Positions 1,243-43,900 of a stretch of 64,000 nucleotides of DNA are shown piece by piece. The notes under the pieces were generated by a model, which was given only the letters and a program-made list of their open reading frames with translations, was not told where the DNA came from and did no database searches. The stretch is from Candidatus Helarchaeota archaeon (GTDB lineage: Archaea > Asgardarchaeota > Lokiarchaeia > Helarchaeales > HEL-GB-A), in the NCBI GenBank assembly GCA_013375455.1, contig JABXJT010000011.1, forward strand, positions 25,481 through 89,480. Direction: 5' to 3'. The position numbers and the translations under genes were made by a program. Each line of letters opens with the position of its first letter. Within the stretch, counting starts at the first letter, position 1.

Positions 1243-2399
1243 AATAATCCCATTGCTTCTGCTATGAGAGTCACGATATCTTGCACTTCAACGTTGATAC
1301 GTTCCAATTCAGAACTCTTTTTTTCCGTCAGAGTGCAATTAAAATGGATTTGACATTTTGAACAAGTGGTAATCAAGTAATCCGCCGTTTTTTCAGCTTC
1401 TTTCAGCCTATCGATGCGGATTGCCTTGGTAAAGTCATTACAATAATTGAATGCGCTCACACCGCAACAGAGAGAGCTTTCACGAATCCTCTCCATCTCT
1501 CTGAATTTCACGCCAATTCCTTCTAAAGCTTTAAGAAGCTTGCGTGGGGCATCATATTCACCCATGTGTCTCCCTAACCTGCAGGGATCATGGTACGTCA
1601 CATTTTTGGAAATCTCTTTCTCAAACTTTAGCACGCCTTTATCCAGTTGCTCAGCTAAAAATTGGGTAATGTGCATCACTTTGAATGGAAGTTCGCCAAA
1701 TAATTCCTTATAATCTATCGCCAAGGTGCGATAATCTTCTGCACAGGAGGTGATGACAAGTTTTACACCTGCTTTATTGATTAAATACGCGTTATATTTG
1801 GCCAATTTTTTGAAGGTTTCGTAATCTCCTTGCCAAAGAACATCATGGCCGCTACATTTTGCATTATCTAACAGGACTAGCGGCTTTTCTAGCAATTTAT
1901 CGAGAATTAAAATTGAACTCTTCGCGATTTTTGCGAAGTCCATTCCAATATCATCAAAGTACGTGCCAAGGATGGCAAGGCATCCTGGAAAATAAGCAAT
2001 TTCCCCAGTAGTTTCCAATTGGACATTGTCAGGAATGTAATCCCTTGGGAATTTTGGAAACACTTGCTCCTTTGCGAGAATGTTGGAAACATTTGAAACA
2101 AAACAATCATGAGTTTCCTCGACGCGGAACCCTTTATTAAATAATTCAATACGTACCTGACGAATAAATTCCCCAAAATTCACGTTCTGGGGGCATCGAG
2201 CCAAACAATAATTGCAGGTCAGGCATGCGAGTAAATTATTTTTCTTAAGTATTTCTTGCGGGTTCGGGTTATTTAATAAATCATAAATTATTGCACGAGG
2301 TGAAAATTCTTGCGTATAAGAAACTGGACAGCAACCTGTACAAGTACCACATTGATAACAATAACTGACCCGTTTCTTAATTTCATTGCTCGTTATCAT
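1239..2399 (-). CDS. HdrD-like (fused HdrC/HdrB) CCG-domain iron-sulfur protein
   Basis: Iron-sulfur protein of the HdrD/GlpC type, 386 aa. The N-terminal 65 residues carry two ferredoxin motifs (CYQCGTCTGCCP and CLTCNYCLARCP), equivalent to HdrC. The rest has two CCG-type domains, equivalent to HdrB. The second is normal (DPCRLGRH, then CCG near residue 313, then CSKC). The first is degraded: CSG replaces CCG and CAED replaces the final CxxC, so probably only one noncubane cluster is built. Start ATG at 2399 overlaps the FrhB-like stop by ATGA, and the stop overlaps the HdrA start. It would carry the disulfide-reducing site of the complex. The substrate could be CoM-S-S-CoB or another thiol/disulfide pair; sequence alone does not decide. 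Confidence 0.85.
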   Translation of the reverse strand: MITSNEIKKRVSYCYQCGTCTGCCPVSYTQEFSPRAIIYDLLNNPNPQEILKKNNLLACLTCNYCLARCPQNVNFGEFIRQVRIELFNKGFRVEETHDCFVSNVSNILAKEQVFPKFPRDYIPDNVQLETTGEIAYFPGCLAILGTYFDDIGMDFAKIAKSSILILDKLLEKPLVLLDNAKCSGHDVLWQGDYETFKKLAKYNAYLINKAGVKLVITSCAEDYRTLAIDYKELFGELPFKVMHITQFLAEQLDKGVLKFEKEISKNVTYHDPCRLGRHMGEYDAPRKLLKALEGIGVKFREMERIRESSLCCGVSAFNYCNDFTKAIRIDRLKEAEKTADYLITTCSKCQIHFNCTLTEKKSSELERINVEVQDIVTLIAEAMGLL

Positions 2400-3922
2400 T
2401 GTTCTTCAACCTTCAAAATTTGGTTTAATGAATTATAATAATAAGGAGGTGATTCGTCTAGAATTTTCTTCAACCCCTTAAAATTACGCTTTCTCTTCCC
2501 CTTTGCGAGTTTCTCAATTAATGGTGTTCCAAAAGGCTTATCCGCAGGGATATCTTTTACTTTAAAGTATTTCTCCTTTAAAGCATTATTATAAAGCATT
2601 TCACCTTGTTCTGATCTAACAACGACTGTAGACCATCCGGGGCCTGATCCAATTGAACCACATGAAATATCCGCCAACTCATTTGTTAGATCGACGCAAT
2701 AATGACAAGCATGCCGTGCTAGAGAGGTAACTTCTTTAATTGGAACATCTACCGCATTTTTCTCCAAATCATAAACAAAAAACTTACCTTTATTAATATC
2801 CATTTTGGAAACATTAGTAATTGGTGTATTACAAACCTCCTCTGAGATTTTAACTACATTCTCATAGGAGAAAGTTTCCATGCAAAAAATTCCAATAACG
2901 TACTCAATGCTACCCCAAACATCCTCAAATATATTGGAGTAGACTTGGTATTTGCGCATTGCTTGAACTTGACAAGGTGTTCCAACGAACGCCAACTTTC
3001 TAAATCCAAATTGGGAGGCTTCATTGAATGCCACTAAATTTGGAGATACTGCGTATTTGGTACCAGATGCTTCAAGAAGTTCATCAATATTTGAAACTAT
3101 TACGGCGTTCGTATCCCACGAATTTGGCTGTCTTTTTGCGACGACTGCTCCATGTATCTCACTTTTTTCCAAAAGGTACTGTAAAAATGTAGTAACCATC
3201 CCTCCATCCTGACAGACCGCCTTAATTTCATCGTTGGCAGTCTGGGCCGATTTGAGTATTCTGTACGGTCCAATTGGTTGGACATCTAAATCCTGAAAGA
3301 AGCTCTCTTGAGGGCCTGAAACATGTGTTTTCAGGATATTTAATGGCATGAGAGTTCTAGGACAATGATAATTGCAAAGTCCACAGTGAATGCATTTCTC
3401 TTCATCAATAATGGGCTTGTCACCCGCAATAGTTATTGCTTCTACTGGACAAACCGCTTTACACGCACCACATAGGCAGCAAAGATGTGAATCAACTATT
3501 ATTTGGATTGGATCATAAACCGATCGGAGATTCCAAGGTGAGATTAAATCCAATTCTAATTTTTCTTTATTTTTTGTTATGATAGATTTAATTCCGTATA
3601 TCATCTTATCTTGGTCTCGTAACTCCAACCAGCCTTCATTTTGAAGCGCAAGAATGTGCATCATGACTGTGAATTCAGTGAGTTTTAAATCACTCACAAG
3701 TTGTGAAACTGAGGCAGATCCTCTTGATTGGATGTACAGTAAAACCTGGTATTTTTCTGTTTCCATTACCATAATTCTATCAGTAATGCTTTCTATATGC
3801 TCTAATTTCAGCTTGTCTGCATTTTCAATGGCAAACTGATTTTCCAGAAGCGAACGAACAAATAGGCTCCCTGCATACGCCTCAGTTACTGCATCCATTA
3901 ACTCTTTTGTCAATTGAGTCAT
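2396..3922 (-). CDS. FrhB-type F420-binding iron-sulfur flavoprotein with N-terminal winged helix
   Basis: 508-aa three-part protein. Residues about 45-120 look like a winged-helix (ArsR/TrmB-like) domain, with phrases such as SVSQLVSDLKLTEF and a wing at LELRDQDK. Residues about 145-195 form a two-cluster ferredoxin (CCLCGACKAVCP, CIHCGLCNYHCP). The remainder is the F420 hydrogenase/dehydrogenase beta family, with GTPCQVQAM and IGIFCMETFSYE typical of FrhB and FpoF. It should oxidise or reduce F420 and feed electrons to HdrA and MvhD next door. A strong Shine-Dalgarno (AAAGGAGGT) precedes ATG at 3922. The winged helix on an FrhB is unusual and could be a DNA-binding or simply a docking module. 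Confidence 0.88.
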   Translation of the reverse strand: MTQLTKELMDAVTEAYAGSLFVRSLLENQFAIENADKLKLEHIESITDRIMVMETEKYQVLLYIQSRGSASVSQLVSDLKLTEFTVMMHILALQNEGWLELRDQDKMIYGIKSIITKNKEKLELDLISPWNLRSVYDPIQIIVDSHLCCLCGACKAVCPVEAITIAGDKPIIDEEKCIHCGLCNYHCPRTLMPLNILKTHVSGPQESFFQDLDVQPIGPYRILKSAQTANDEIKAVCQDGGMVTTFLQYLLEKSEIHGAVVAKRQPNSWDTNAVIVSNIDELLEASGTKYAVSPNLVAFNEASQFGFRKLAFVGTPCQVQAMRKYQVYSNIFEDVWGSIEYVIGIFCMETFSYENVVKISEEVCNTPITNVSKMDINKGKFFVYDLEKNAVDVPIKEVTSLARHACHYCVDLTNELADISCGSIGSGPGWSTVVVRSEQGEMLYNNALKEKYFKVKDIPADKPFGTPLIEKLAKGKRKRNFKGLKKILDESPPYYYNSLNQILKVEEQ

Positions 3923-4481: not shown

Positions 4482-4562
4482 AACACGCCCCGGGGTTGCG
4501 TTTCCCCCGCTTTCCATATGATCTTTAAATTTTTATCAACATGGGCATTAGTTAGGCGTGTT
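4482..4562 (-). ncRNA. Candidate SECIS element after hdrA (three-way junction)
   Basis: Minus-strand RNA starting at the last base of the hdrA stop codon. An outer 8-bp stem (4562-4555 AACACGCC with 4489-4482 GGCGUGUU) encloses two hairpins. The first is about 9 bp with one bulged U (4544-4535 with 4522-4514). The second is a 5-bp CGGGG/CCCCG stem (4509-4505 with 4495-4491) with the loop GAAACGCAA. The second loop matches the GAACGCA loop after mvhD although the stems differ, as expected for a conserved structure. It could instead be a shared processing site or a terminator, but the latter does not explain the common loop. Confidence 0.45.
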
Positions 4563-6553
4563 TATTTAATTAAGGCGTCAATTTCATTTAATAATTGCTC
4601 ATCTCGATAATATCGGAATGTAATTGCTCTTGCTGGACAACTTGCTGCACAAACTCCGCATCCCTTGCACGCAATTTCGTCTACGTGGGCAATCCCATCT
4701 TCTTCAACTTTAATTGCATTGAAACTACAGTTACGTTCGCAAGTTCCGCATCCAATACAAAGGATTGAATCCACGATTGGATTGACGAGTTCCAGCCTGA
4801 ATATTCCTGCTGCTACAAAATCGATTGCCATCACCGCTGCCGCTCGTGCAGTGGAAACTGTATATGGAACTGCCATGGGGTTTCTAGCCGTCCCACCAAT
4901 ATACACTCCGCTGGCTTTTGTTTCAACAGGATTCAAACAAGTGTGAATTTCTTTCAAAAACCCTGAAGGTGCCTTGTCAAGCCCTAGTAAGTCTACAATC
5001 CCTTTGGTCTTGGGGTGGGGAACCATCGCAGTTGATAATATTACCATGTCAAATTCTTCTCGAATAATCTTTCCACGGATGACATCTTCTCCTCGTAACA
5101 GGAGATTATGGGTTTCCGGATCTTCTCGAATTTCAGCGACTTTACCTTTGAGGAACTTTATTTGTGGATTTTCACCACGAATGCGAGCGTAATATTCCTC
5201 TTCATCTTTGGATGTAGCACGAATATCTATGTAAAAAATCGACACCTCGATATCATCATACTCTTGCACCAAGAGTTGGGCGTTTTTTATTGCAACTAAG
5301 CAACAGACACCGCCCGAGCAGTAGGCATTCGTCTTCACGTCTCGTGATCCCACACATTGAATCATTGCGATTTTTTTGGGGATCTTTCCATCTGAAATCC
5401 GGTAGAGATGTCCTCCAGTTGGACCTGTAGGGCTAATCAATCGTTCTAATTCAATCTGAGTTAGAACATTATAGAATTTCCCGTATCCGAAATCACCGTG
5501 CTTTTGGATATCATAAACTTCATAACCGGTCGTAATCACGATTGCCCCGACTTCGATGTCTTCATGCCATGGTTCCATCTCGTAATCGACTGCGCCTGCC
5601 AAACAATTTTTTTGGCATTGCTTGCACTTGGTGCAGGCATCCATATCAATGTAGGCCTTCTGGGGAACTGCATTTGGATGAAGGATGTTTATCGCCGTTC
5701 TGGTACCTAAACCATAGTTGAATTCGTTCGGTACTAGAACTGGGCATTTTTCAAGGCATCTTGCACAACCCGTGCATTTTTCCCAGTCGATATAAGTTGG
5801 TTTGTGTTCAATCTTCACCTTGTATTGTCCTGCACTGCCTGTAATATCCTTGATTTCGCAGTAAGTCCGTAATTCAATATTCGGGTGCCTCGCAGTTTCA
5901 ACCATTTTTGGGGCTAAAATTCATATAGCACAATCGTCAGTCGGGAAGGTGCGGTCTAATTGGGCCACTTTTCCCCCGATGCTTGGCAATGCATCCACAA
6001 GATAGGCTCTGAAACCTGCATTTCCAATTGCTAATGCTGCACTGATTCCACCAATTCCCGCACCAATCACCAAGACCTCTTTAATGACTTCCAACTCTTT
6101 TAATGGAACATCATCTAATATTATCGCTCTCTCAATCCCAGCTGCCATAAGTGCTTTCGCCTTCTCTGTGGCATCTTCCTTTGTTGATGGATTTACAAAG
6201 GAAACCTGTTCTCTTAGATTCACCATTTGAAAGTAATATTGGCTCAATCCTGCGGATTCAACTAACGCTCTGTAAGTTGGCTCGTGGATTTTCGGCGTGC
6301 AAGCCCCTACGACTACCCGATTCAAATTGTGGTTGACTATGTCCTCAGCGATCATTTCCTGACCCGGTTCGGAACAGGTAAAAGTTGATGTTTTCGCTAG
6401 GACCACGTTGGGCAGGGTTTTCGTAAATTCTGCGACTTCCTCGACATCTACAATGCCACCGATATTAACGCCTCGTGCCAGTATTTGAAATAAAAACTGG
6501 ACTCACGCACAAATGTAGATGCCTATTCTAGGTTCAATATTTTCCAATGCCAT
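4562..6553 (-). CDS. hdrA: HdrA flavoprotein with two selenocysteines
   Basis: Full-length HdrA of 663 aa once two in-frame TGA codons are read as selenocysteine. One is at 6505-6503 (residue 17, in IYICAU), the other at 5923-5921 (residue 211, in DDCAIUILAPKM). The second matches the Cys of DCSLCILAPKM in the paralogue at 1-1242. Domains: N-terminal HdrA domain (1-150) with CSEPGQE, FAD-binding GAGIGG (about 163-168), ferredoxin motifs near 260-270 and 307-317, and two C-terminal 4Fe-4S motifs (about 600-645). Methanococcal HdrA is a known selenoprotein at the second site. About ten residues (VQFLFQILAR) separate U17 from GVNIGGIVD, where I expect the motif to be contiguous. Start ATG at 6553 follows a 54-aa ORF. 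Confidence 0.92.
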
Positions 6554-7094: not shown

Positions 7095-7508
7095 ATGGAC
7101 GCTCAAGGACACGCGCAAGCCCAATCAGACAAGATCCAAATAAAAGATCAAATCGAGAAATATAAAGAAATGCTTAAATCCGATCCCAACAATCCAACAA
7201 TTTTATCAAACTTAGGAGCTTGTTATGCTTCAATAAATGAGTTTGAGGAAGCTACAGATTTATTCAATAAAATTTTAGAACAAGATCCAAAAAATTTGGA
7301 TGGGCTAAATAACCTGGGGGTAATCTTTACACAAACTGGAAAATTTGATGAGGCTATTGCCAAACTCGAAGTTGCTGTAAAGTTAAAACCAGATAGCGCA
7401 AAATTATGGAGTAATTTAGGTGAGACCTACCGACGTGCAGGAAATTATCATAAAGCTAATGTTTGTCGGATGCGTGCCATCCAATTAAATGAAAGAATTA
7501 AAGAATAA
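7095..7508 (+). CDS. TPR-repeat protein
   Basis: 137-aa soluble protein made almost entirely of tetratricopeptide repeats. About three repeats are visible with the TPR pattern: NLGACYASINEFEEA, NLGVIFTQTGKFDEA and NLGETYRRAGNYHKA. Such repeats form a helical scaffold for protein-protein contacts. It is the first gene of a plus-strand run of seven genes (7095-13646) that includes CBS, FrhB-like, Rag-like GTPase and arrestin-like proteins, so a scaffolding role in that set is plausible. The partner is unknown. Confidence 0.85.
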   Translation: MDAQGHAQAQSDKIQIKDQIEKYKEMLKSDPNNPTILSNLGACYASINEFEEATDLFNKILEQDPKNLDGLNNLGVIFTQTGKFDEAIAKLEVAVKLKPDSAKLWSNLGETYRRAGNYHKANVCRMRAIQLNERIKE

Positions 7509-7519
7509 GAGGGTCGTAT

Positions 7520-7963
7520 ATGGCTCCAGAGCAGAAAAGCCCTAAGAACACGTTCAAAGATATTGCGAGCAAAAATGTTTTCTTTTGTGATGAAGAAGAT
7601 ACCGTTTCCACCATCGCCCGAAAAATGCAGGAATATTGGACTGATACGATTTTTGTACAAAAAAAATCAGGTAAGGTGACGGGAATGATAACCGACGGCA
7701 TTATTTGGAATCTAATCGCAATAGGAAAAGGCGAATCGGATCCTCGAAAGTTAAAAGCAAAAGAAATTATGTTTAAAAACTTCATACGCGTCAATTGGGA
7801 TGAACCTATCGATTCTATTGATCAGGTGCGCGAACTTCTTGATAAAAGAAAAATTCAACGGATTGGATTAGTGAAAGAGGGTCAAATTGTTGGGCTTGTA
7901 AGGAAAAAATTCATTGAGCGCGTGAAACGGTTCGCAAGAAATTTTTCATTTGAATTAAAATAA
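7520..7963 (+). CDS. CBS-domain pair protein
   Basis: 147-aa protein with two CBS domains forming one Bateman module. The first spans residues 10-75 (DIASKNVFFCDEEDTVSTIA, then GKVTGMITDG). The second spans 82-140 (EIMFKNFIRVNWDEPI, then GQIVGLV). CBS pairs usually bind adenosine nucleotides or other charged ligands and act as energy or metabolite sensors. It lies 11 bp after the TPR gene and 20 bp before the longin-like gene, clearly in the same operon. No catalytic domain is attached, so it should act on a partner, possibly the FrhB-like protein downstream. Confidence 0.85.
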   Translation: MAPEQKSPKNTFKDIASKNVFFCDEEDTVSTIARKMQEYWTDTIFVQKKSGKVTGMITDGIIWNLIAIGKGESDPRKLKAKEIMFKNFIRVNWDEPIDSIDQVRELLDKRKIQRIGLVKEGQIVGLVRKKFIERVKRFARNFSFELK

Positions 7964-7983
7964 GGAATGATGAGGAAAACTGC

Positions 7984-9060
7984 TTGTTTGAAGACCCGAA
8001 TCAAAAGATTAAAGGCGATATTTTCATCAAGCGAAATCCCCCTAAAGATGAATCCATTAAAGGATTGTATGAAATCTTTCTTGCTTATTTCAATGAAGAA
8101 CTTGGGCACGTTCCCCTTTTCACTTACCCCGCACATTTAAAAGATGATAAAGATGAGTGTCGCATCATTTCAATCCACTCGATTTGGTGGTTGGATACTG
8201 AAACGCAGAAAGATTTGGAACATGTTGATTTAGAATATAGCGGGAGGAACTATTTAGCTACCAAATTTAGGGCAAAATCTTTTCGAGAAAAATCCCGGAG
8301 TGGCCTAAAAACCGAAACCCCTGAAACCTTCGTGCTCATTACCAGCGTCCCTATAACTTTAACACCCTTTGGAACCAGTATGCTTAGTACGATCTTTCAA
8401 CAAATACAAGAAATCAAGGATGACCTATACATTTTAATTGAGAAGGAATTGGCCAGTGTAAAACCACTTAAAAGCCAGCAAGATAAGGAAAATATCAAGA
8501 AGGGAGCAGGAATAGAAGCCAAATTATTACAGATTTGTGAAGAATCCATTCCCGATATCACTACAGATGTTCTCGAGACACTCATCAATGTAGATAACGT
8601 AGATCAACAAAACCTGGCATATCTTTTGTTGGATGATCTCCATGATCTCCATTTTATAGAACCTGCAACCAGAGAATTTGACGTTACTCAGTCTGAGGCA
8701 AAAATCGAAGAGCCTACCGCCCGTGAGAGTGAAGTTTTTAAACGGAAAATAGAAATTAAAAACATTTCACTTATGGATGATGATCGTAAATTAAAAATCA
8801 CGATTAAAAACATTTCAGACCGTGATTTAAGTAACATAACAATCCGAATTACTCATATTCAAGAATTTTTTGAAACCGCCTCCTGGCATACCACGATAGA
8901 TACGTGGTATTCGGATGAAGAGCTCATTTTCCAATATCCTAGAATATTTGGCGAAAATAATGATGAATATATGCTTCGAATTGAAGATCAAACGGGAAAA
9001 CTTCTTGTAAAGAAAATTTCATTTCATGATTTCAAACCAAAGAGGAGTGAAGAAAAATGA
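7984..9060 (+). CDS. Longin-like protein with C-terminal shared beta-sandwich module
   Basis: 358 aa, starting at TTG 7984. Residues about 25-160 look like a mixed alpha/beta domain reminiscent of longin folds (YEIFLAYFNEELGHVPLF, then a beta stretch ending in VLITSVPITL and a long helix). This assignment is weak. Residues about 180-235 are helical. Residues 252-352 form a beta-rich module (KITIKNIS, RITHIQEFFE, TWYSDEELIFQYPR) clearly related to the C-terminus of the FrhB-like protein at 9983. It shares EFFE, a W-rich strand and the EEL-F-YPR block with it. The stop overlaps the start of the next CBS gene by ATGA. Function unknown; the tail suggests a common binding partner for several operon products. 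Confidence 0.65.
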   Translation: MFEDPNQKIKGDIFIKRNPPKDESIKGLYEIFLAYFNEELGHVPLFTYPAHLKDDKDECRIISIHSIWWLDTETQKDLEHVDLEYSGRNYLATKFRAKSFREKSRSGLKTETPETFVLITSVPITLTPFGTSMLSTIFQQIQEIKDDLYILIEKELASVKPLKSQQDKENIKKGAGIEAKLLQICEESIPDITTDVLETLINVDNVDQQNLAYLLLDDLHDLHFIEPATREFDVTQSEAKIEEPTARESEVFKRKIEIKNISLMDDDRKLKITIKNISDRDLSNITIRITHIQEFFETASWHTTIDTWYSDEELIFQYPRIFGENNDEYMLRIEDQTGKLLVKKISFHDFKPKRSEEK

Positions 9061-9932
9061 AACGCATTTCTGTTCAGGACATAATGGCGCGCAAAGTAAT
9101 TGGCGTTGATTATGAAACCAAGGTGGATGAGATAATCAAAATAATGGGCGAAAAAAAAATCGGCAGTATTGTAATTTTAGATAAAGAGAAACCAGTCGGA
9201 ATGATTACTATACGTCAGCTTTTACAAATTGCCGAGAAATGCACGCCACCTGCTTCTCTTAAAGCGGGAGATGTTATGAGTTCACCTGTAATAACGGTGC
9301 AGCCTAATGTTAATCTCCGCCAAGCATCAATATTAATGCTTCAAAAGGGGATCAAAAAACTCGTTGTGGAGGAGAATGGAAAATTAATTGGGTTACTCAC
9401 AACCACCGATATTGAACGCGTTTTTATTCCACTTAATTCTGTTTTCGACATTTTAAAAGATGAATCAGCTATGAGTGTGGCTTTGCGCGAAGAATTTCAA
9501 AAAGATATGGAACAGAAATTAGTGGAAGAACTAATGACTAAAGATGTTAAAACCATCACGATTTCAATGAAAATAAATGAAATTGCGAAAATTATGAATC
9601 AAACGAAAATTGGTAGCTTAATTGTAACAAAAGATGAAAAAGCTATAGGAATTGTCACTGATGTAGATATTATGAGACGCATAATGAATTTCGGTCTGGA
9701 TCCTTGCTCCGTGACAGCTGAGGAAGCAATGGAAGATCTCGTGACAATCTTCCCAAAAGATTCACTCAAAAGCGCAGTTGAAAAGATGATTGACAAAACC
9801 GTTAAAAAATTAGGCGTAATCGATTCGAATGAAGCCTTAGTTGGGATAATAACTACGACTGATTTCCTCGTTTATTACCGATCCTTGCTATTCCGTCCAA
9901 AAATTTTAGATAAAATTAAGAGGAATATTTAA
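9057..9932 (+). CDS. Four-CBS-domain protein
   Basis: 291 aa with four CBS domains in two Bateman modules. The repeats begin near residues 6 (DIMARKVIGVDYETKVDEII), 75 (DVMSSPVITVQPNVNLRQAS), 158 (ELMTKDVKTITISMKINEIA) and 224 (EAMEDLVTIFPKDSLKSAV). Each is followed by a GMI/GLL/GIV/GII core strand. Start ATG overlaps the upstream stop by ATGA, so translation is coupled. No enzyme domain is fused. Such proteins usually sense AMP, ATP or S-adenosyl compounds and regulate an associated enzyme or transporter. With the two-domain CBS protein at 7520, the operon carries six CBS domains. Confidence 0.9.
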   Translation: MKRISVQDIMARKVIGVDYETKVDEIIKIMGEKKIGSIVILDKEKPVGMITIRQLLQIAEKCTPPASLKAGDVMSSPVITVQPNVNLRQASILMLQKGIKKLVVEENGKLIGLLTTTDIERVFIPLNSVFDILKDESAMSVALREEFQKDMEQKLVEELMTKDVKTITISMKINEIAKIMNQTKIGSLIVTKDEKAIGIVTDVDIMRRIMNFGLDPCSVTAEEAMEDLVTIFPKDSLKSAVEKMIDKTVKKLGVIDSNEALVGIITTTDFLVYYRSLLFRPKILDKIKRNI

Positions 9933-9982
9933 ATAAGATTTGTTAAAAACTTTGAAAAAAAAGCCGCTTTGGTGAGCTGATA

Positions 9983-11479
9983 ATGGTTGAAATAAAAACT
10001 GCGTTCGACGAGTTACAAGAGCGAATGAAAGGTAGCAAGGATTCTTTTGGGCGTCTAATGCGTGAAGTTGTTAGTACAGGCGTATGTACTCATTGCGGCG
10101 CATGTGTAGGCACCTGTGATTTTATAGATTGGGATGAAGTTACTGAAAAACCTAATTTGGTTGGGAAATGTACTGGCTGTGGGGTTTGTTACATGCAATG
10201 CCCCAGAACAATAGTTGCGCCACGAGACCTTGTCGGGCGCTACCAAGCCGCCTACACTGGCCGTGCAAACCCGGAATTTGGAATCAAGGGACAAGATGGA
10301 GGTATTGTAACTGCGCTTCTTCTTTACGCACTAGATAAAAAGCTAATTGATGCTGCTGTAGTAACTGGTAAAAGCTCTGAGGAGCCATGGAAACCAGAAG
10401 CAAAAATAGTAACAACAAAAGAAGAACTTCTGAAAACATCAGGTTCAATTTATAGCCATAGTCAGACATTAATTGGTTTATTGGAAGCAATAAAACAAGG
10501 CCACCATTCAATCGGCTTTGTAGGAACCCCATGTAATGTTGATGCAGTATATAAGATGTGGAGAGCACCATTTGGACTGGTCCGCATGTATATGAGAGCG
10601 AATATCCTCGTAATTGGTCTATTTTGTATGGATTCCTTTTCACATGAAGGGTTAAAAGCCTTTTTGGAATTAAAAAAGATAGACATAGGTGATATCGAAA
10701 AGTGCGCAATTTCGAAAGGGAAAATGCAATTTATTCAGAAGAACGGAGAGATCTTGGCAGTTCGAGTTCATGATCTTGATAGATATCGATCTTCAAGTTG
10801 CTCCTATTGCACTGATTTAACTTCTGAAAATGCAGACATTTCTGTTGGTAGTGTTGGGTCTCCTGATGGTTATTCCACAATCCTCGCGCGAACCGGGATA
10901 GGAATAGAGGTTTTGTTAGATGCTGCTGAAGCTGGCTATCTCGAAATCGAACCATTGCCAAGAAATAAAATGAAGTGGGTCTTTAATCTGGCGCGTATGA
11001 AGAAAGCACAATTATATACGGTGCGAACACGAAGGCGATATATCCTTGGATATGAGGAGCCGGGTGTTGCTACTCCGGGTGGCGAATTAGCGAAGGCACC
11101 GGAAGAAGTAAAAGATACAGGAACCATTATCAAGGATGCAGCTGCAAGAACCAAAATAATAAAATTCTCAGGATTAGATTTATCACTCGACCGAAAAGAA
11201 ATAGAATTTAAATTAATTAACAATTCTGGAAATAGTCTTGAGAACATTCAAGTTAAAATCTCACACGTTACCGAGTTTTTCGAGGATCATAAATGGTTTA
11301 CTAACATTAACGTATGGTATCCCTTTGAGGAACTTGAATTCTCTTATCCTAGAGTCCAAGAAAGTGACGAATATGAATATTTATGTGAGATTAAAGATCA
11401 ACTCGGTACTATCTATACCAGAAAAATAGATGTTAAGAAATTGCTTGCTAAATTAGAAAAAGCAAAAGAATCAAAGTAA
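9983..11479 (+). CDS. FrhB-type F420 iron-sulfur flavoprotein with C-terminal beta-sandwich module
   Basis: 498 aa. Residues 30-80 carry a two-cluster ferredoxin (CTHCGACVGTC, CTGCGVCYMQCP). Residues about 85-345 are the FrhB/FpoF family core (GQDGGIVTALLLYAL, GTPCNVDAVYKM, IGLFCMDSFSHEG). Residues 389-488 form a beta-sandwich module shared with the proteins at 7984 and, more distantly, 12483 (KISHVTEFFE, VWYPFEELEFSYPR). The N-terminal winged helix of its paralogue at 2396 is absent. It should exchange electrons with F420, but no Hdr or hydrogenase subunit lies in this operon. The neighbours are CBS and GTPase genes, so a sensory or regulated redox role is possible. Confidence 0.88.
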   Translation: MVEIKTAFDELQERMKGSKDSFGRLMREVVSTGVCTHCGACVGTCDFIDWDEVTEKPNLVGKCTGCGVCYMQCPRTIVAPRDLVGRYQAAYTGRANPEFGIKGQDGGIVTALLLYALDKKLIDAAVVTGKSSEEPWKPEAKIVTTKEELLKTSGSIYSHSQTLIGLLEAIKQGHHSIGFVGTPCNVDAVYKMWRAPFGLVRMYMRANILVIGLFCMDSFSHEGLKAFLELKKIDIGDIEKCAISKGKMQFIQKNGEILAVRVHDLDRYRSSSCSYCTDLTSENADISVGSVGSPDGYSTILARTGIGIEVLLDAAEAGYLEIEPLPRNKMKWVFNLARMKKAQLYTVRTRRRYILGYEEPGVATPGGELAKAPEEVKDTGTIIKDAAARTKIIKFSGLDLSLDRKEIEFKLINNSGNSLENIQVKISHVTEFFEDHKWFTNINVWYPFEELEFSYPRVQESDEYEYLCEIKDQLGTIYTRKIDVKKLLAKLEKAKESK

Positions 11480-11540
11480 TTTTTTAAATTAGTAAGAAAA
11501 TCATTCAAATTAGAGAAAAAAGTATGAACTTATTGGAGGC

Positions 11541-12458
11541 ATGAATGTGAAAATCAGCTTAGTTGGATTAGCAGGTTGCGGTAAGACTAGCATTTATGGT
11601 ACCACATTTGCAGGCAAATCCCCAATAGAAACCAAAGATTTTGCCCCTACCGTAATGTATGAAGTACGACGCCACCCATATCTCGGTTTAAATGTAGCCA
11701 TTTTCGATTTTGGGGGACAAGCTCAATACAGAGATTCTTATCTAGAAAAACCCGAAATTTTCGCTGAAACTGATGTATTAATTCCGATTGTAGATTTGCA
11801 TGATGCTGCGAAATTTGAAACTGCAAAGGAATATTTCCTTAAAATCATGGATCTTTATGAAAAAAGTGTAAAAAAACCAATCATCATTATCTTTCTCCAC
11901 AAATACGATACAGAAGAATTCGATAAAGATCAGCTAGAGACCAACTTAAAGAAAGCAAAGGATATTTTTCCTAAGGCATTGGAAAAATGGAATCCCAAAG
12001 TGCAAATAACCTCCATATACGATCGCGAGAAATTATCGATGATTCTAAGAGATATTTTAGTTGCAAACTATGAGTCCCTTCAAGAACACGTCCAAAACGC
12101 AGAGAAGCAACTTGCAGAAATAAATGCGAAAATTATTGTAAGTGATGTTTCCGGGAATGTCATCGTTCATAATGTTCCAGGCATTTCGAGTGGATTACAA
12201 CTACGGGGTGACCTAAGAGATTTCATCAGTTCTTGTAATACTTTACGGGAAAATTTCTTCATGACAGATTCTGCAGTGTTCCAAGGCGAATCCGAGAAAT
12301 CTGAAAAACAGCTCGAATTACACGTCTTTAAATTCATCCTCTCGGTATTAATAATGCGTGGAAAAGATATTGACGTGGATTCCGAACAAAAAATTAAGAC
12401 CCTCTTGAAAGATATGAGGCTTTTTGCAGACTTGGTAGTCTCAGCACATAGTGATTAA
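11541..12458 (+). CDS. Rag/Gtr-like GTPase with roadblock-like C-terminal domain
   Basis: 305 aa. The G domain shows G1 GLAGCGKTS, G3 DFGGQ, G4 HKYD in place of NKxD, and SIYD after the last strand. HKxD and the TSI(Y/W)D motif are hallmarks of eukaryotic Rag/Gtr GTPases, which sit with Ragulator on lysosomes. Residues about 185-305 look like a roadblock/longin domain (AKIIVSDVSGNVIVHN, then helices), as in Rag proteins. A good Shine-Dalgarno (GGAGGC) precedes ATG 11541. Rag-family assignment is from motif recall; an alternative is a more general Arf/Rag-like Asgard GTPase. Its position between the FrhB-like and arrestin-like genes suggests a signalling module. Confidence 0.8.
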   Translation: MNVKISLVGLAGCGKTSIYGTTFAGKSPIETKDFAPTVMYEVRRHPYLGLNVAIFDFGGQAQYRDSYLEKPEIFAETDVLIPIVDLHDAAKFETAKEYFLKIMDLYEKSVKKPIIIIFLHKYDTEEFDKDQLETNLKKAKDIFPKALEKWNPKVQITSIYDREKLSMILRDILVANYESLQEHVQNAEKQLAEINAKIIVSDVSGNVIVHNVPGISSGLQLRGDLRDFISSCNTLRENFFMTDSAVFQGESEKSEKQLELHVFKFILSVLIMRGKDIDVDSEQKIKTLLKDMRLFADLVVSAHSD

Positions 12459-12482
12459 TTCAGTCCAGAACTTGAAGGATGA

Positions 12483-13646
12483 ATGATGCAAGCAGTAAAG
12501 ATAACTTCTGAACCCGAAGCATTTGTTGGAACTTCGGTAGTAGTTAAAAATACATTTAACCTACCTGAAGATGTAAAAATCTTTTGGGCCGGAAGTCGAA
12601 TTTACGCAAAGCGCTTATGCGGAAGAGATATTTTAATTTCCAAGGCGGATGTTTTTTGTGAGGGTCAGCTCGAAAAGGGGGAATACATAAGAGAAAAAAC
12701 CCTGCCCATCAGCACTCGAGTTCCGCCTTCCGTTAAGGAGCGGAATTTAGGTTATCGTATTCGGTCAGAAATTAGCATGGTAAAGCCAAGCACGAAATCT
12801 GAGGAAGAGTTCTTTTTTGCAGACAATCCCATTCTTTTGAAGGCAAGCCCTGGGAAAGGCGGGGATTTCCATCCAGTCGATTTATCCATAACAGGAATTA
12901 AAATTCATTTAGATAGAGACCATTTTCAGCCGGATGAAACCATAAGAATTGATTACGAATTAGAAAAATTCAAAAAATTCGAAGTAAATCTCGTGAAGGA
13001 TGCTAATATAACCTGCAACTGTCCCGATTACGCGCCTACCTGTGTTCACATTAAGCCTAAACCCCCCTCCGTAGAGAAAGCTGTAAAAGCCAGTAATTTG
13101 ACGCGAGGAACACTTCAAATTCTTCTTCCATCATTCCTAGAATTAACACATCGTTATCAGTGGGAACCGCCAGAAAAGACTCGATGGAAAGAAACCTTCG
13201 GGGATTACGTAAATTGGCTGCTAGAAGTGATTGGAACACGCACTTCAGGTGAAAACGTGAAATTACAGATTCCAATCACCATTTATAAGAAACCTTCTCC
13301 AGAAGATGGGGAATTATTCTCTTCCAAGCAGGCATCTGGACCCATTTTTCAAAAATTACTTGTTCCTGACTTAATCGATATAATACTCGCAGGTCGGGAT
13401 CAAAATCGCCTAATAATTGGTCTGCAAAACAACTCAAAAGAAGTCCTTAAGGGCGTCACCGTAATAATCATCCCCATTGAATCAGAATTCTTTGAGTTAC
13501 CACCGAATTTAACTGGCGTGAATGAGTGGAAACCCAAAACTGAAATCCAGGCATTCCATAATAACTTAGGGAAAACCATTAAAAATATCCAAGTCCTTAT
13601 TGAAGATAATAACGGCAATATCGTCAATAAACGTTTCAATTTATAA
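12483..13646 (+). CDS. Arrestin/Vps26-like beta-sandwich protein with shared C-terminal module
   Basis: 387 aa. Residues about 5-105 and 128-278 look like the two arrestin-type beta-sandwich domains (SVVVKNTFNLPEDVKIFWAG, GYRIRSEISMV, then DETIRIDYELEKFKKFEVNL and an interposed loop with CNCP and TCVH that may bind metal). Residues 293-387 form a beta module carrying NNSKEVLKGV and SEFFE, weakly matching the modules at 7984 and 9983. No signal peptide or membrane segment is present. Arrestin-fold proteins in Asgard archaea have been proposed as precursors of trafficking adaptors. Here the gene directly follows a Rag-like GTPase. Fold assignment is inference from pattern, not from a search. 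Confidence 0.6.
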   Translation: MMQAVKITSEPEAFVGTSVVVKNTFNLPEDVKIFWAGSRIYAKRLCGRDILISKADVFCEGQLEKGEYIREKTLPISTRVPPSVKERNLGYRIRSEISMVKPSTKSEEEFFFADNPILLKASPGKGGDFHPVDLSITGIKIHLDRDHFQPDETIRIDYELEKFKKFEVNLVKDANITCNCPDYAPTCVHIKPKPPSVEKAVKASNLTRGTLQILLPSFLELTHRYQWEPPEKTRWKETFGDYVNWLLEVIGTRTSGENVKLQIPITIYKKPSPEDGELFSSKQASGPIFQKLLVPDLIDIILAGRDQNRLIIGLQNNSKEVLKGVTVIIIPIESEFFELPPNLTGVNEWKPKTEIQAFHNNLGKTIKNIQVLIEDNNGNIVNKRFNL

Positions 13647-37954: not shown

Positions 37955-40900
37955 ATGAAATACTCTAAAAAAATTCATGCAATAGTTACTTTAACGATAA
38001 TTATAACTAATATTTTCTGCGTTATCGGTTTAAATTATCTCTTTGACAGTGAAAGCTCATCAAAATCCCAAAAAATACAACAAGTTCCCTTATCTCACCT
38101 TCAAAATTGTGGCTTATTTGATGGCATGTACATAAATCATACACTCACCTTAGATATGGGTGGTCCCCCTATAATCGGCGACTCAAGTTTTTCATATTCA
38201 CAATTGTCAGCAAATGCTTCTCATGTAAGGTGGGATAACATAGTTTTTGGTCTTGCGGAATGGGACGTGGATATTCGGAACAGAGTGATGGATAACTCCT
38301 CAGGAGTTATATTATTGGGTGACGGGAACCATGATCCCTCATGGATCTTTACAAATGTTACCCTGGGAACACTCGTTCAGATTGCGAATATTATGATGGT
38401 GGATGGGACTTTCAATGTATCAGGAGAATTGGTACATGATCTTCCAGGTCATGGTCCTGTGGATGTGTGGGTTTTAGAAGAAATAGGTGCTACTTCGTCT
38501 GTTCTGTGGTATGAAAAGAATTATGGAATCCTTTTAAATGGGTCATTTGATCTGGGTTTTGGTATGGGGTATAGCTTTGATTTCACGGATACGAACATAT
38601 TTTTTGGACTAAATGACTACACGCCCAGTTTAACAATGGGGAATGTCACACCATTAACAGGGGACCAGGTAACCGAATTCAATTTTAGTGTTGTTTACAC
38701 CGACCAAGATAATAATACTGCTTATTTCGTGAATGTATTGATAAACAACACCCCCTATACAATGGCGAAGCAAAATCCATCCGATATAAACTATACAGAT
38801 GGATGTATTTATCAGTTTCTAACCTACCTGCAACCGGGAGATTATAATTATTCATTCGAATGCTTTGATGGGAAATATTCTAATTCAACTGGGACCTATT
38901 TTGGTTTGTCAGTTAGTAATGTAACTAATACAAATGCCCCTGTATTATATGATGGGCAGGTTACTCCTGCGGTGGGCCATAATTCCAGTACAATTTTCAG
39001 ATTTCAAGTAAATTATACGGATATAGATAACTATTCTCCCACTTACGTAAATGTAACGATAAATTCTACAACTAACTCTATGATTAAACTAAATCCGGCT
39101 GATATGAATTATGTCGATGGCTGCTTGTTCATCTATGATACTACGCTAAACACCATAGCAACGTATTCCTATTACTTCAATTGTTCAGATGGTGATTATA
39201 ATGCAAGTCTCGGTCCAATCAGCGGCCCAATCGTCCAAAAAACACAAATATTTGATGGTATGTATGTAAACCATACCATTACATCCACTGCTCTAGGAAA
39301 TGGACCATCCGTCTTTCTCTATTCTCATTTTGCTGGTAGTATCTTTAATGTGACGTGGGTTAATTGGTTCCACACTTGGGACGTGGACCTGAAAGATAGA
39401 GTCATGTCAAACATTGTAGGGGGTTGGTTCGCTATTGGTTCTCACACTCCTGCGTGGATCTTCAATACCGTTTCTCTCGGGGATTCGGTTCAAATTGCAA
39501 GCATTATAGAATCTGGCCATATTTTCAATGTTTCAGCAGAAATAGATTATCTACTTCCAGGGTTTGGCCCCATAGAGGTCTGGGTGCTGGAGGATTTGAC
39601 CACTCCCGGTGGAATTGCTTGGTATGAGAAAAGTACAGGAATTCTTCTGAACGGTACTTTTTATTTTGCGGGAGGTGCCTGGGATTACACCTTTGATTTC
39701 AATGACACAAATGTTGCATTCACCTATATCACGAACGATTACGCACCTGAACTGACTTCGGGTTCTGTTGTCCCTTTGAATGGAAATCAGACCACACTCT
39801 TCAATTTCAGCGTAACCTACACCGACGCGGATAATAATTATCCCCTGTACATTGATGTATTGATAAATGGAACGCCCTATCCCATGGCGAAACAAAATTC
39901 CTCTGATAATAATTATACAGACGGGTGTGTTTATCAATATTTAACCTACCTGCAACCAGGACTTTACAACTTTTCGTTCGAGTGCGGCGATTGGAACTTT
40001 ACTAATTCGACAGTGACCTACTTTGGTTTGAATGTAAGTGGTACAATCAATCTTAATGCACCCACATTAGATAATGGAGAAGTAAATCCCGCGGTGGGCC
40101 ATAACTCGAGTACTCTCTTTACCTTCAGAGTAAATTATACAGATCTCGATAACAATCCTCCCGCTTACGTGAATGTAACGATAAATGCAACGGTCTATTC
40201 TATGACCCAACAATATCTCAATGATACAAGTTACCAGGATGGTTGCTGGTATAATTACAGTACTATTTTAACTAATTTAGGAACCCATAGTTATTATTTC
40301 AACTGTTCGGATGGCAATTATACTGCGAGTCACGGTCCATTAACTGGCCCAGTTGTGACAAAGACCCAATTATTTGATGGCATGTACATCAATCATACAT
40401 TAACATCCGCTATTTTAGGAAATGGACCTTCCGTATATCTCTATTCTTCTTTTGGTGGCGGGATATTTAATGTGACTTGGGTTAATTGGTTCCATACTTG
40501 GGATGTGGATGTGAGAAATCGAGTCATGTCAAATGTTGTAGGGGGTTTGTTCGCTAGCGGTTCTCACTCTCCCGCATGGATCCTCAATACTGTTTCCCTC
40601 GGGGATTCGGTTCAAATTGCAAGCATTATGGAACCTGACCATATCCATAACGTGTCCGGAGAATTAACTTATTACCATCCAAAGTTTGGGTCCTTGGATG
40701 TCTGGGTGCTGGAAGATTTGACGGCTCCGGGGGGAATTGCTTGGTATGAGAAAAGCTCGGGCATTCTCCTGAATGGCACGTTCTATTTTATGGGTTTGTG
40801 GAGCTATACTATGGATTTCGTAGATACTAATGCGATACCTAATGACTATGCACCGGAATTAACTTCGGGTTCTGTTGTTCCTTTGAGTGGGAATCAGACT

Positions 40901-43900
40901 ACACCATTCAATTTCAGCGTGACCTATACCGACCAAGATAATAATCCTCCCATATATCTTAATGTATTGATAAATGGCACGCCCTATCCCATGGCGAAAC
41001 AAAATCCCTCTGATATCAATTATACAGATGGGTGTCTTTATGAATACCCGACTTATTTGCAGCCCGGACTTTACAACTATTCGTTCGAGTGCAGTGATTG
41101 GAAATTTCCGAATTCAACTAGTACTTATACAGGCATTAATGTGACACAGCTCAATGCAAATCCACCTACGCTAAGTAATGGGCAAGTTAATCCGCCGACA
41201 GGCTGGAGCAACTCAACGCAATTCGTTTTTACGGTAAATTATACCGAAACAGAAAACAATGCACCCATTTACGTGAATGTAACAATTAATGGAACCATTT
41301 ACTCCATGATTAAGCAAAATCCACTTGATATGAACTATATGGATGGATGCATTTATGAGTATTCCACCACATTAAATATAGGGACCTATAATTACACTTT
41401 TAACTGTTCGGATGGGGTTTTTCCAGATGGCGATGGGCCTTATTTTGGCTTGGTTGTAGAACAGAATATCTTAAAGAATTATATTATGGTGCCAGATTAC
41501 CGTTATGAGTGGGTTGATGCGACAACTGGGATTCGGGCGAGTATGGATGGCATGGTTGATGAAGCTCAACTCTTTAATTTACCCTTCCAATTTCGATTCT
41601 ATAATGAAACCTACGATTCTATCTACGTTTGCACCAATGGCTTCGTAAGCTTTACATACGAAACCTCGTGGATGAATGTTCCCTTTCCTTCTAGTTCATA
41701 CCCAAACATGATCGCACCTTTCTGGGATGATTTACAAGCAGCCATTCCTTGTAATATTTTTGTAAGAAATTTGACTTCCCCAAATCGAGTGGCCATTGAA
41801 TGGGAGAACGTTAATCTTTTTATGGGACCGATTTTAGGAACATTTGAGATAGTCCTCTTTGAATCAGGTGATATTGTTTTCAACTATGATTATCTTAATG
41901 ATGCGTCCAGCTATACCTGTGGATTGAATTATGGAATTAATACGAGTTTTTTCAATGCATTCACGGCACTGAACACCTCGATGGATGATTTTTCCATACT
42001 CTTTTATCAAGATGATCTAATCCCGCCGAATGGCACTCAGAGCCCCTCAACGAACATCAGCAACCCTCAAAATGGGGATGTGAACGGATTCATCTGGGTT
42101 AATGGAACTGCGTGGGATAATATTCGGGTTCAGAATGTTACTGTCGAGTGGACAAATCATACCGGAAACCCATGGAGTGCGAACTTGGGGTCGAATACGA
42201 ATTGGGCCTTTAATAATATTTCCACGATAAATGATGGTTATTGGGAAGTATGGGTCAACGTCACCGATTTATCAGGTAATTCAGCGATTATTAACTGCTC
42301 TATATTGGTAGATTCTTCACCTCCTTATGGTTCTCAAAGTCCTTCGACCAATCTCTCAAATCCGCAACGTGGTGATGCCAATCAATTCATTTGGGTGAAT
42401 GGCACTGCTGGAGACGATGGAATTGGCGTGGCGAGCGTCACCATCCACAATACAACTCATCCCGGAAATCCTTGGAGCACGAATTTAGGAACCAATCAAA
42501 ATTGGGCTTTTAACAACATTTCAACCATTCAAGAGGGGCAATGGGAAATTCAAGTAAATGTGACGGACTATACAAATAACTCTGTGATTATCGTGTGTAA
42601 TATATTCGTAGATACCGTGGCACCTACGGGATCTCAATGGGTCAATACAACGACCCCCGAGATACAAAGAACAAGCACCCTCTGGATTAATGGTACCTAC
42701 AACGACCCATCCCCTAGCTCAGGGATCCAATTAATAATCGTTTCGTCAAATACTTCAGGTGGAGTTGCCGATTGGAGCGTAAATGTTGGCTCTGGGCAGA
42801 ATTTTGCTTTCTATAATGTCTCTCCCTTGGCCGACAATTCCCTCAACGGTTTTTATGAAATTAATATCACCCTTTTCGACAATGCGGGGAATCAATTTGA
42901 CCTTACTTGCAGAGTGACCGTTGAGATTAATCCGCCCTACGGAAGCCAAAGCAGCTCAACCAATGCTTCTAATCCACAACGTGGTGACGTGAATTCCTAC
43001 ATTTGGGTGAATGGTACTACTGGAGACGATGGATTTGGCGTGGCGAGCGTCACCCTTCACAATACAACTCATCCCGGGACTCCTTGGAGCACGAATTTAG
43101 GAACCAATCAAAATTGGGCTTTTAACAACATTTCAACCATTCAAGAGGGGCAATGGGAAATTCAAGTAAATGTCACGGACTACGCAAATAATTCACTCAT
43201 CATTATCTGCCAGATCTATGTGGATACCGTAGCACCCACGGGATCTCAATGGGTCAATATAACGACCCCCGAGATACAAAGAACAAGCACGCTTTGGATT
43301 AATGGTACATACACGGACCCATCTCCAAGCTCTGGGATTCAATCTTTAATAATCGTTTCGTCAAATACTTCAGGTGGAGTTGCCGATTGGAGCACAAATA
43401 TCGGCTCTGGGCAGAATTTCGCCTTCTATAATGTCTCTCCGTTGGCTGACAATTCTTTGGGCAGTTTCTATGAAATTAATATAACCATTTTAGACAACGC
43501 GGGGAACCAATTCGGTCTCACTTGTAGAATAACCGTGGAGATCAATCCACCCTCTGGGAGCCAAGATGCCACCACGCAAGTTCCAACACGGGGCGATGCT
43601 AATGGGCGTGTATGGGTCAATGGTACCTGTTCCGATCTCGGATTTGGTATGAAGAATGTAACCATCCAATGGAGCAATCATTCGGGTTGGAGTTCCAATC
43701 AAGGCACCCTCAATTCTTGGGCCTTCTATAACACTTCTTCCATAGGAGGTGGGTTATGGGAAGTACAAATTAATGTAACCGATCTCGCCAATAACTCTGC
43801 AATCATCATTTGTTATGTCTATGTCGATTACGTGGCGCCAACGGGTTCTCAAACCCCTTCTACAAATGTTAGTTCTCCTCAGAATGGCGATCCAAATGGG

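Follow-up and report, generated by a model that had tools for sequence, protein, structure and literature searches.

A conserved Asgard gene module associating an F420-type flavoenzyme and a Rag-like GTPase with CBS-domain, longin-fold and arrestin-fold proteins

Growth decisions in eukaryotes run through Rag GTPases, for which, to our knowledge, no pre-eukaryotic role is known. Nor do we know of a TOR kinase in the archaea considered here, of a system in which the known folds described below stand in the same arrangement, or of an earlier case in which a small GTPase has a metabolic flavoenzyme as its fixed partner and is retained when that enzyme gives way to another flavoenzyme type. The longin domain of NPRL2 carries Arg78 on one of its loops (PMC8534245, in excerpt). 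In FLCN:FNIP and SMCR8:C9orf72, longin subunits are paired and one of them gives the arginine finger (PMC8213707, in excerpt). For Asgard archaea, excerpts of Tran et al. 2024 (PMC10933270) describe a single operon-borne pair of Rag-like genes in MK-D1, and the main text of that paper does not contain the terms 'CBS', 'F420' or 'arrestin'.

The window is the whole analysed stretch of 64,000 nucleotides from a Candidatus Helarchaeota archaeon (GCA_013375455.1, contig JABXJT010000011.1, positions 25,481 to 89,480 of the forward strand). A cluster of genes, here called A to G, is encoded in it (Table 1). An earlier note on this DNA had described seven plus-strand genes with short gaps or overlaps, and all seven open reading frames are found where it had placed them. 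The spacing is 11 bases between A and B, 20 between B and C, 50 between D and E, 61 between E and F and 24 between F and G, and D overlaps C by 4 bases. C and D are fused in other Helarchaeota (L002, L040 and L019). The seven-gene layout is real and beyond chance. No description of the cluster was found among the titles and abstract openings returned by searches of open-access PMC literature, and the analysis gives good support to a conserved module, apparently undescribed there, that links an F420-type flavoenzyme, a Rag-like GTPase, CBS, longin-fold and arrestin-fold proteins.

Table 1 Features of the cluster and its divergent neighbor (positions in the window)
Feature	Position	Strand	Basis
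Seven-gene cluster A-G	7095..13646	+	open reading frames, placed as in the earlier note
Gene A, small TPR protein	7095..7508	+	profile match
Gene B, CBS-domain protein, 147 aa	7520..7963	+	profile match
Gene C, longin-fold protein, TTG start	7984..9060	+	predicted structure
R-x-K-x-R-S-G motif, C residues 101-107, b4-b5 loop of the longin domain	8284..8304	+	alignment
Shared tail domain in C, residues ~254-348	8743..9027	+	alignment; Ig-like beta-sandwich in model
Gene D, four-CBS protein	9057..9932	+	profile match
Gene E, FrhB-type F420 flavoenzyme	9983..11479	+	profile match
Eight cysteines of E (35, 38, 41, 45, 63, 66, 69, 73), two ferredoxin-type [4Fe-4S] motifs	10085..10201	+	invariant in 63/63 aligned E
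Shared tail domain in E, residues 393-482	11159..11428	+	alignment
Gene F, Rag-like small GTPase	11541..12458	+	profile match
Conserved C-terminal part of F, residues 194-305	12120..12455	+	conservation across F sequences
Gene G, VPS26/arrestin-fold protein	12483..13646	+	predicted structure
Shared tail domain in G, residues 298-387	13374..13643	+	alignment, model
HdrA, divergent neighbor	4562..6406	-	in-frame UGA 5921-5923

The earlier note had named a gene order not conserved in any relatives as speaking against its proposal, and this is not what was found. In 59 of 72 Asgard loci, the gene immediately 5' of F is E, encoded on the same strand; genes were called with a greedy ORF caller that may miss or shorten them, and many of the loci are cut by contig edges. 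The 13 exceptions comprise two loci with F at a contig edge, five titled Hod-/Heimdallarchaeota and six that are otherwise different; four of the five carry another redox enzyme bearing the tail domain that C, E and G have in common (see below), and the fifth (L065) is cut short. The full order A-G is found only in the Helarchaeota locus L001, and L002 has the same order with the C-D fusion. Among the fetched loci, these two are also the only ones with a strong homolog of A adjoining the module. Homologs of B adjoin C in Helarchaeota, Jordarchaeia and Sigynarchaeota, and a CBS protein related to B is encoded in Hod/Heimdall-type loci (for genomes G057-G064, the label Heimdall-type denotes genes nearest to titled Hod/Heimdall loci). 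In the five fetched Loki loci, C stands apart from E-F, and the small gene adjoining C encodes a GNAT acetyltransferase, not a CBS protein, in all four that were scanned. Outside Loki, CBS genes accompany C in the majority of C-bearing loci. The fetched Hod/Heimdall-type stretches yielded no homolog of G and encode a second longin protein in its place.

Gene F was previously read as a Rag-like GTPase with a roadblock tail. The first part of this reading agrees with the profile scores, which are 70.4 bits for Pfam Gtr1_RagA vs 53.5 for Arf. The roadblock is unconfirmed, as the C-terminal part is without a Pfam match and its profile gave only spurious matches in the PDB. The protein has a P-loop (GLAGCGKTS), DFGGQ and HKYD motifs and a C-terminal extension. 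Against the PDB, its profile matches the Asgard GTPase 8yl2 (97.5 bits), RagA (up to 72.7) and Gtr1 (66-73), and more weakly RagC (up to 51), Arl3 (37) and Arf1 (35 or less). In a GTPase tree, Rags, F and Asgard paralogs are set apart from Arf1 and MglA (97/94, long branches), with F as its own branch beside the Rags and other Asgard Rag-like GTPases. With the same long branches, a clade of F with RagA/Gtr1 was borderline rejected (p-AU 0.0497) and a clade of F with Arf1 was not (0.093). By profile, F is Rag-like, but the tree does not put it inside the Rags. The earlier note had also named a grouping of F with Arf/MglA apart from Rag as speaking against its proposal; the profile scores favor Rag, and the tree gives no clear verdict on this point. 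Nor does the tree give clear support to F as a direct Rag ortholog. Heimdall-type paralogs adjoining the locus outscore F on Gtr1_RagA (118 and 110 bits) and are nearer to eukaryotic Rags than F. At E 1e-50, a single F match was obtained in 75 of 80 genomes, a result that does not hint at a further F-type partner. Recovery of the E-adjacent F of G062 was partial (residues 172-303).

The remaining domain calls of the earlier note largely stood. Those for A (TPR) and D (four CBS units) agree with profile matches, D scoring 154 bits to Pfam CBS over four stretches. For B, called a two-CBS protein, the profile backs CBS (41.7 bits) with one unit scored; its alignment to D over 125 residues (30%) fits two. 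The longin-like and arrestin-like calls for C and G are backed by predicted structures, and the FrhB identity of E by FrhB_FdhB_N and FrhB_FdhB_C domains in Pfam, Fe-S motifs and conserved cysteines.

The predicted structure of C consists of a longin domain, a helical middle and a tail, and supports a longin fold similar to that of NPRL2, the GAP for RagA. In the structure search (VIA list), NPRL2 rows, whose chain was assigned by entry and length only, are found at ranks 27, 31 and 42 with Z-scores tied with unrelated Ig rows; most rows are Ig-like domains matching the tail, and other longins are barely compared. C gave no PDB profile match and nothing in Pfam, and there is no Pfam family common to its members. 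A sequence-level homology to NPRL2 was rejected, as hhalign gave 11.5 vs 11.2 for AP2 sigma and 10.9 for YKT6, and the best of 100 NPRL2 shuffles reached 23.2. We read the likeness as one of predicted fold and, from the NPRL2 sequence, of loop position, the Arg78 loop probably being equivalent to the b4-b5 loop of C. In this loop, R101, K103, R105 and G107 are invariant in 39/39 aligned C-type sequences, a count that omits the split C of L005, the C-D fragment of L019 and the truncated C1 of L106 and L108. R105 and G107 are missing in 5/5 aligned sequences of C2, the second longin paralog (five of those seen). C2 came from Hod/Heimdall-type loci only, and the pairing of a catalytic with a non-catalytic longin is therefore not demonstrably general.

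All 12 cysteines of E are kept in 63/63 aligned sequences, a set from which E ORFs of ≤480 aa (L004, L024, L049) were omitted, as were two that do not immediately precede F. The closest solved relatives are 8riu_B (190 bits) and Fsr (170 bits), and no catalytic partner subunit (hydrogenase, FDH or Fpo) is encoded among A-G. Hodarchaeota loci have, in place of the FrhB enzyme, a flavoenzyme of the GltD/NfnB type that bears the same tail domain. Seven of the eight presumed GltD-type genomes were confirmed by phmmer; the eighth, G057, is presumed from open-frame length. Loss of F420 does not explain this swap, since cofD and cofE are each over the cut-off in seven of these eight genomes (no cofD match in G016; cofE of G064 below the cut-off only).

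For G, the predicted structure supports a VPS26/arrestin fold with two arrestin-type beta-sandwiches; in Pfam, only a sub-threshold Arrestin_C match was obtained. Cysteines C178, C180 and C187 are invariant, forming C-x-C...C-x-H in the window. A protein search with G returned 28 proteins, the named ones being from Asgard MAGs or from one 'Deferrimicrobium' TPA record, which we take for a mislabeled Helarchaeote.

The C-termini of C, E and G are one homologous domain of ~95 residues without a Pfam match. With the best candidates scored per genome (up to 22 for the tail, up to 10 for F), the domain was found in 95 of 227 Asgard-phylum genomes, among them 79 of the 80 with F. The other 16 have a tail without a detected F, possibly owing to genome incompleteness. 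Exactly three copies are present in 57 of the 95 tail-bearing genomes and four or five in 15, and three per genome are usual even where the genes are scattered. A single-sequence search with the tail of C returned 23 proteins, 74-99% identical and all of C-like length, a set too narrow for judging the range of the domain. In a tail tree (76 rows, 95 columns), the tails of C2, G and GltD each form one branch and those of E and C do not; on the same alignment, grouping the GltD tail with E or with C gave p-AU of ~0.44 in both cases. The tail domain had been missed by the earlier note, as had the C-D fusion, the exchange of the redox enzyme and the arginine loop.

Divergently from the cluster, HdrA is encoded, whose in-frame UGA we read as selenocysteine. 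Together with FrhB (2396-3922) and an HdrC/HdrB-like protein (1239-2399), it forms a putative F420-heterodisulfide-reductase operon, which is context outside the module. Of the 72 loci, 25 have HdrA-type ORFs within the fetched stretch; in 19 of the 25 these ORFs are upstream and oppositely oriented, which is also the arrangement in the window.

The reading we favor, which we give about an even chance, is a dedicated signaling module in which the redox flavoenzyme and the CBS sensors control F through C as a longin GAP. F would be the switch and C its GAP, with the b4-b5 loop offering an invariant arginine (R101 or R105) in the manner of the arginine fingers of NPRL2, FLCN and SMCR8. B and D, the latter fused to C in relatives, may bind an adenine nucleotide or a similar ligand and tune C. 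E would be an active F420H2:Fe-S flavoenzyme and feed in the redox signal through its reduction state, a role that the NfnB/GltD-type NAD(P)H flavoenzyme would take in Hodarchaeota. The Ig-like tail would gather redox enzyme, GAP and arrestin/VPS26-like adaptor in one physical assembly around F, from which the signal would pass to a downstream effector. Of the earlier proposal, the link between F420-type enzyme and Rag-like GTPase was upheld. Its 'ancestral energy or redox sensing' is still an inference, to which this reading lends a concrete mechanism.

The signal might also run in reverse, with F and its CBS-regulated partner switching E on or off or placing it at the membrane, so that the GTPase controls redox metabolism and the effect on E reaches the neighboring F420-Hdr electron machinery. 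The HdrA-type neighbors fit such a direction, as do the invariant cysteines, by which E resembles a working enzyme and not a dead sensor. However, C and G, the GAP-like and the arrestin-like protein, bear the tail as well, and F, the CBS proteins and C persist where the enzyme is replaced by one of another type. An exchangeable input fits these observations better than a fixed target, and we regard the reverse direction as unlikely, though of real weight. That the genes encode a membrane-coat or trafficking module, with F as its Arf/Rag-like GTPase, the longin and VPS26/arrestin proteins as coat parts and E as tail-held cargo or passenger, is in our view improbable: the neighbor of F is a redox enzyme in most loci, C mostly occurs together with CBS genes in the loci outside Loki that have it, and the fetched Hod/Heimdall-type stretches have a second longin protein instead of a G homolog. 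Conserved co-transcription of unrelated housekeeping genes without a physical complex has in its favor that the case is known from MAG sequence alone. It is very improbable given a homologous domain on three proteins, usually present three times per genome even if the genes are scattered, the C-D fusion and the co-occurrence of F with the tail.

If the favored signaling module is real, the Asgard locus would wire a Rag-like GTPase to a redox enzyme and thereby provide a definite, testable ancestor-like system. It would supply a candidate longin GAP whose arginine loop is identified, together with a new protein domain by which, in most genomes with F, three partner proteins are marked. Tentatively, and with more doubt than confidence, we suggest that the Rag-GATOR1 logic (a Rag-type switch, a longin arginine-finger GAP and a metabolic sensor on the GAP complex) predates eukaryotes and first read redox state through an Asgard tail-tethered F420H2/NAD(P)H flavoenzyme, CBS adenylate sensors, a longin GAP and an arrestin/VPS26-like adaptor. 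Amino-acid sensing by TORC1 would then be a later re-wiring.

Compared with the VPS26/arrestin family, G has 10-15% identity, an added third domain and an invariant cysteine motif. E shares FrhB_N/C domains, ferredoxin motifs and the FrhB cysteines with FrhB, FpoF and the N-terminal half of F420-dependent sulfite reductase; unlike these, it has the shared tail and lies in an operon without a hydrogenase, formate dehydrogenase or reductase partner. In domain architecture, the Hodarchaeota replacement set matches NfnAB/GltD-type and NuoEFG-type flavoproteins, but its NfnB/GltD-like subunit bears the tail and is encoded in one run with a Rag-like GTPase. The longin-borne arginine finger proposed for C would resemble that of the longin-DENN GAPs FLCN:FNIP and SMCR8:C9orf72, whereas C has no DENN domain in Pfam and ends in an Ig-like tail. 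F belongs to the same broad class as the Asgard Rag-like GTPases with roadblock or longin domains in the excerpts of Tran et al. 2024 (PMC10933270). With Rag/GATOR1 (NPRL2/NPRL3/DEPDC5)/Ragulator, the module shares a Rag-like G domain (GGQ and HKxD motifs), a partner gene for a longin-fold protein whose b4-b5 loop has conserved arginines and, in Hod/Heimdall-type genomes, a second longin paralog without the arginine motif. It differs in that no sequence homology of C to NPRL2 was found, F is not placed inside the Rag clade, and a redox enzyme and CBS proteins are found where eukaryotes have amino-acid sensors.

All seven plus-strand genes that an earlier note had proposed as an operon (A to G) were recovered where that note had placed them, with intergenic gaps of 11, 20, -4, 50, 61 and 24 bases from A to G. 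Domain scans identified TPR repeats in A, CBS domains in B and in D (four units), and FrhB_FdhB_N/C together with ferredoxin motifs in E. The longin-fold protein C had no match in the domain scan, and G showed only Arrestin_C, below threshold. The GTPase F scored higher for Gtr1_RagA (70.4 bits) than for Arf (53.5 bits). By profile F is Rag-like, as the earlier note had it; F was not demonstrated as a Rag in a tree, and no family could be assigned to its C-terminal domain. C is a candidate GAP of F, with the chances about even. At Hod-/Heimdall-type loci (L061, L104, L105), three Gtr1_RagA-family genes are found beside F, with one further gene without assignment in their midst; the three score 118, 24 and 110 bits in L061. 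In the tree, the two with high scores cluster with eukaryotic RagA/Gtr1/RagC (95/93).

Coordinates of features in the window and in individual loci
Feature	Sequence	Positions	Strand	Remark
HdrA	window	4562-6406	-	split by in-frame UGA at 5921-5923, motif DDCAI-U-ILAPK; frame open beyond UGA
Single 2,831-aa ORF	window	37955-46450	+	
Gtr1_RagA-family genes	L061	1853-5597	-	beside F
~670-870-aa gene	L005	1861-3879		C25-family peptidase
~530-aa protein	L009	6623-8221		HEAT repeats

Close homologues of F are labelled Helarchaeota, Promethearchaeota or 'Deferrimicrobium'. To sample the locus, the window's F was aligned with 23 homologues sharing 58-87% identity with it. This yielded 72 named loci, whose titles are Loki-, Hel-, Sigyn-, Jord/Frey-, Hod- and Heimdallarchaeota, with a single Bathyarchaeota. 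The layout is conserved: E immediately precedes F, in the same orientation, in 59 of the 72 loci, at a median distance of 78 bases (range 29 to 277). The remaining 13 comprise two with F at a contig edge, five titled Hod-/Heimdallarchaeota and six that differ otherwise. A G homologue is found inside 36 of the 72 loci, immediately 3' of F in 17. The complete order A-G occurs in the nearest named locus, a Helarchaeota MAG (L001); L002 reads A, B, C-D fusion, E, F, G. A dedicated and conserved module is very probable.

Tandem ~425-aa proteins follow G in five Sigyn-/Jord-/Freyarchaeota loci (L003, L005, L007, L008, L010; 18 ORFs by cluster), with a C-terminal V4R domain in both scanned. In Jord/Freyarchaeota loci, the ~670-870-aa gene (one product scanned) lies between C and E or adjoins E; it is found in L005, five other loci by cluster and also L115. 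The gene for the ~530-aa protein (one scanned), a possible further module partner, precedes F by two to four genes in 27/72 loci, in the same orientation. In five Loki loci (L109-L113), C lies away from E-F beside a small gene, a GNAT acetyltransferase in the four scanned.

C, E and G carry homologous C-terminal domains (C vs E: 38% over 90 residues, E-value 1.6e-17; C vs G: 28% over 83 residues, 2.7e-4). A profile from these three tails alone retrieved 125 domains when run on 1,081 called ORFs together with the proteins of the window. E accounts for 61 of them, G for 36, C for 21 and a flavoprotein of Hodarchaeota for four; the remaining three are those of the window itself. The FrhB cluster holds 87 ORFs; 26 FrhB-family ORFs (paralogues or fragments) in these loci lack the tail. 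Whole genomes were searched with a 24-row profile. The tail is present in all 16 Asgard genomes picked from the loci (exactly three copies in 14, two in one, four in one). Among the matches listed, 95 of 227 Asgard-phylum genomes carry it, with three copies in 57, four in 14, five in 1, two in 11 and one in 12. F (E-value <=1e-50) was found in 80 of the 227, as a single match in 75; the tail accompanies it in 79 of these 80 versus 16 of 147 genomes without detected F, again among the matches listed (p = 1.4e-43, a value that ignores kinship). The Loki chromosome G010, a single contig, carries its three tail genes at 1.82, 1.90 and 2.62 Mb, where they co-occur without being neighbours.

All 12 cysteines of E, those of its two ferredoxin-type motifs as well as four additional FrhB cysteines, are invariant in 63/63 aligned sequences; among solved structures, 8riu_B and F420-dependent sulfite reductase match E best. 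In four genomes taken for Heimdallarchaeia (G058, G061, G062, G063), a tailed FrhB-type E lies next to F and is encoded on the other strand; after it come CBS and the C-type longin C1 and, in three of the four, C2, a paralogue without the RxKxR loop of C. Another set comes after F at Hodarchaeota-type loci: NuoE-, NuoF- and NuoG-like genes, a protein of 296 aa whose Fe-S domain is of DHODB type and which we read as NfnA-like, and a flavoprotein with Fer4_20, Pyr_redox_2 and the same tail as C/E/G (domains from the scan of L061). This set recurs in L108 and, cut, in L107; GltD-like paralogues without the tail lie nearby in L104, L105 and L107. The redox enzyme of the module is therefore exchangeable. 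A swap forced by lack of F420 is ruled out, since F420 synthesis genes are found in genomes with the replacement flavoprotein. Because E is exchangeable, we lean slightly towards E as the source of a redox signal, and not as a target under the control of F.

In the window, a putative F420-heterodisulfide reductase operon runs divergently from A; besides FrhB and an HdrC/HdrB-like protein it encodes HdrA, interrupted in frame by a UGA. HdrA-type ORFs occur within the fetched stretch of 25/72 loci, and in the short N-terminal HdrA cluster all 20 ORFs stop at TGA, followed by a conserved continuation. Selenocysteine-containing HdrA of Asgard archaea has already been published (PMC11227280); it is a known selenoprotein family of these archaea.
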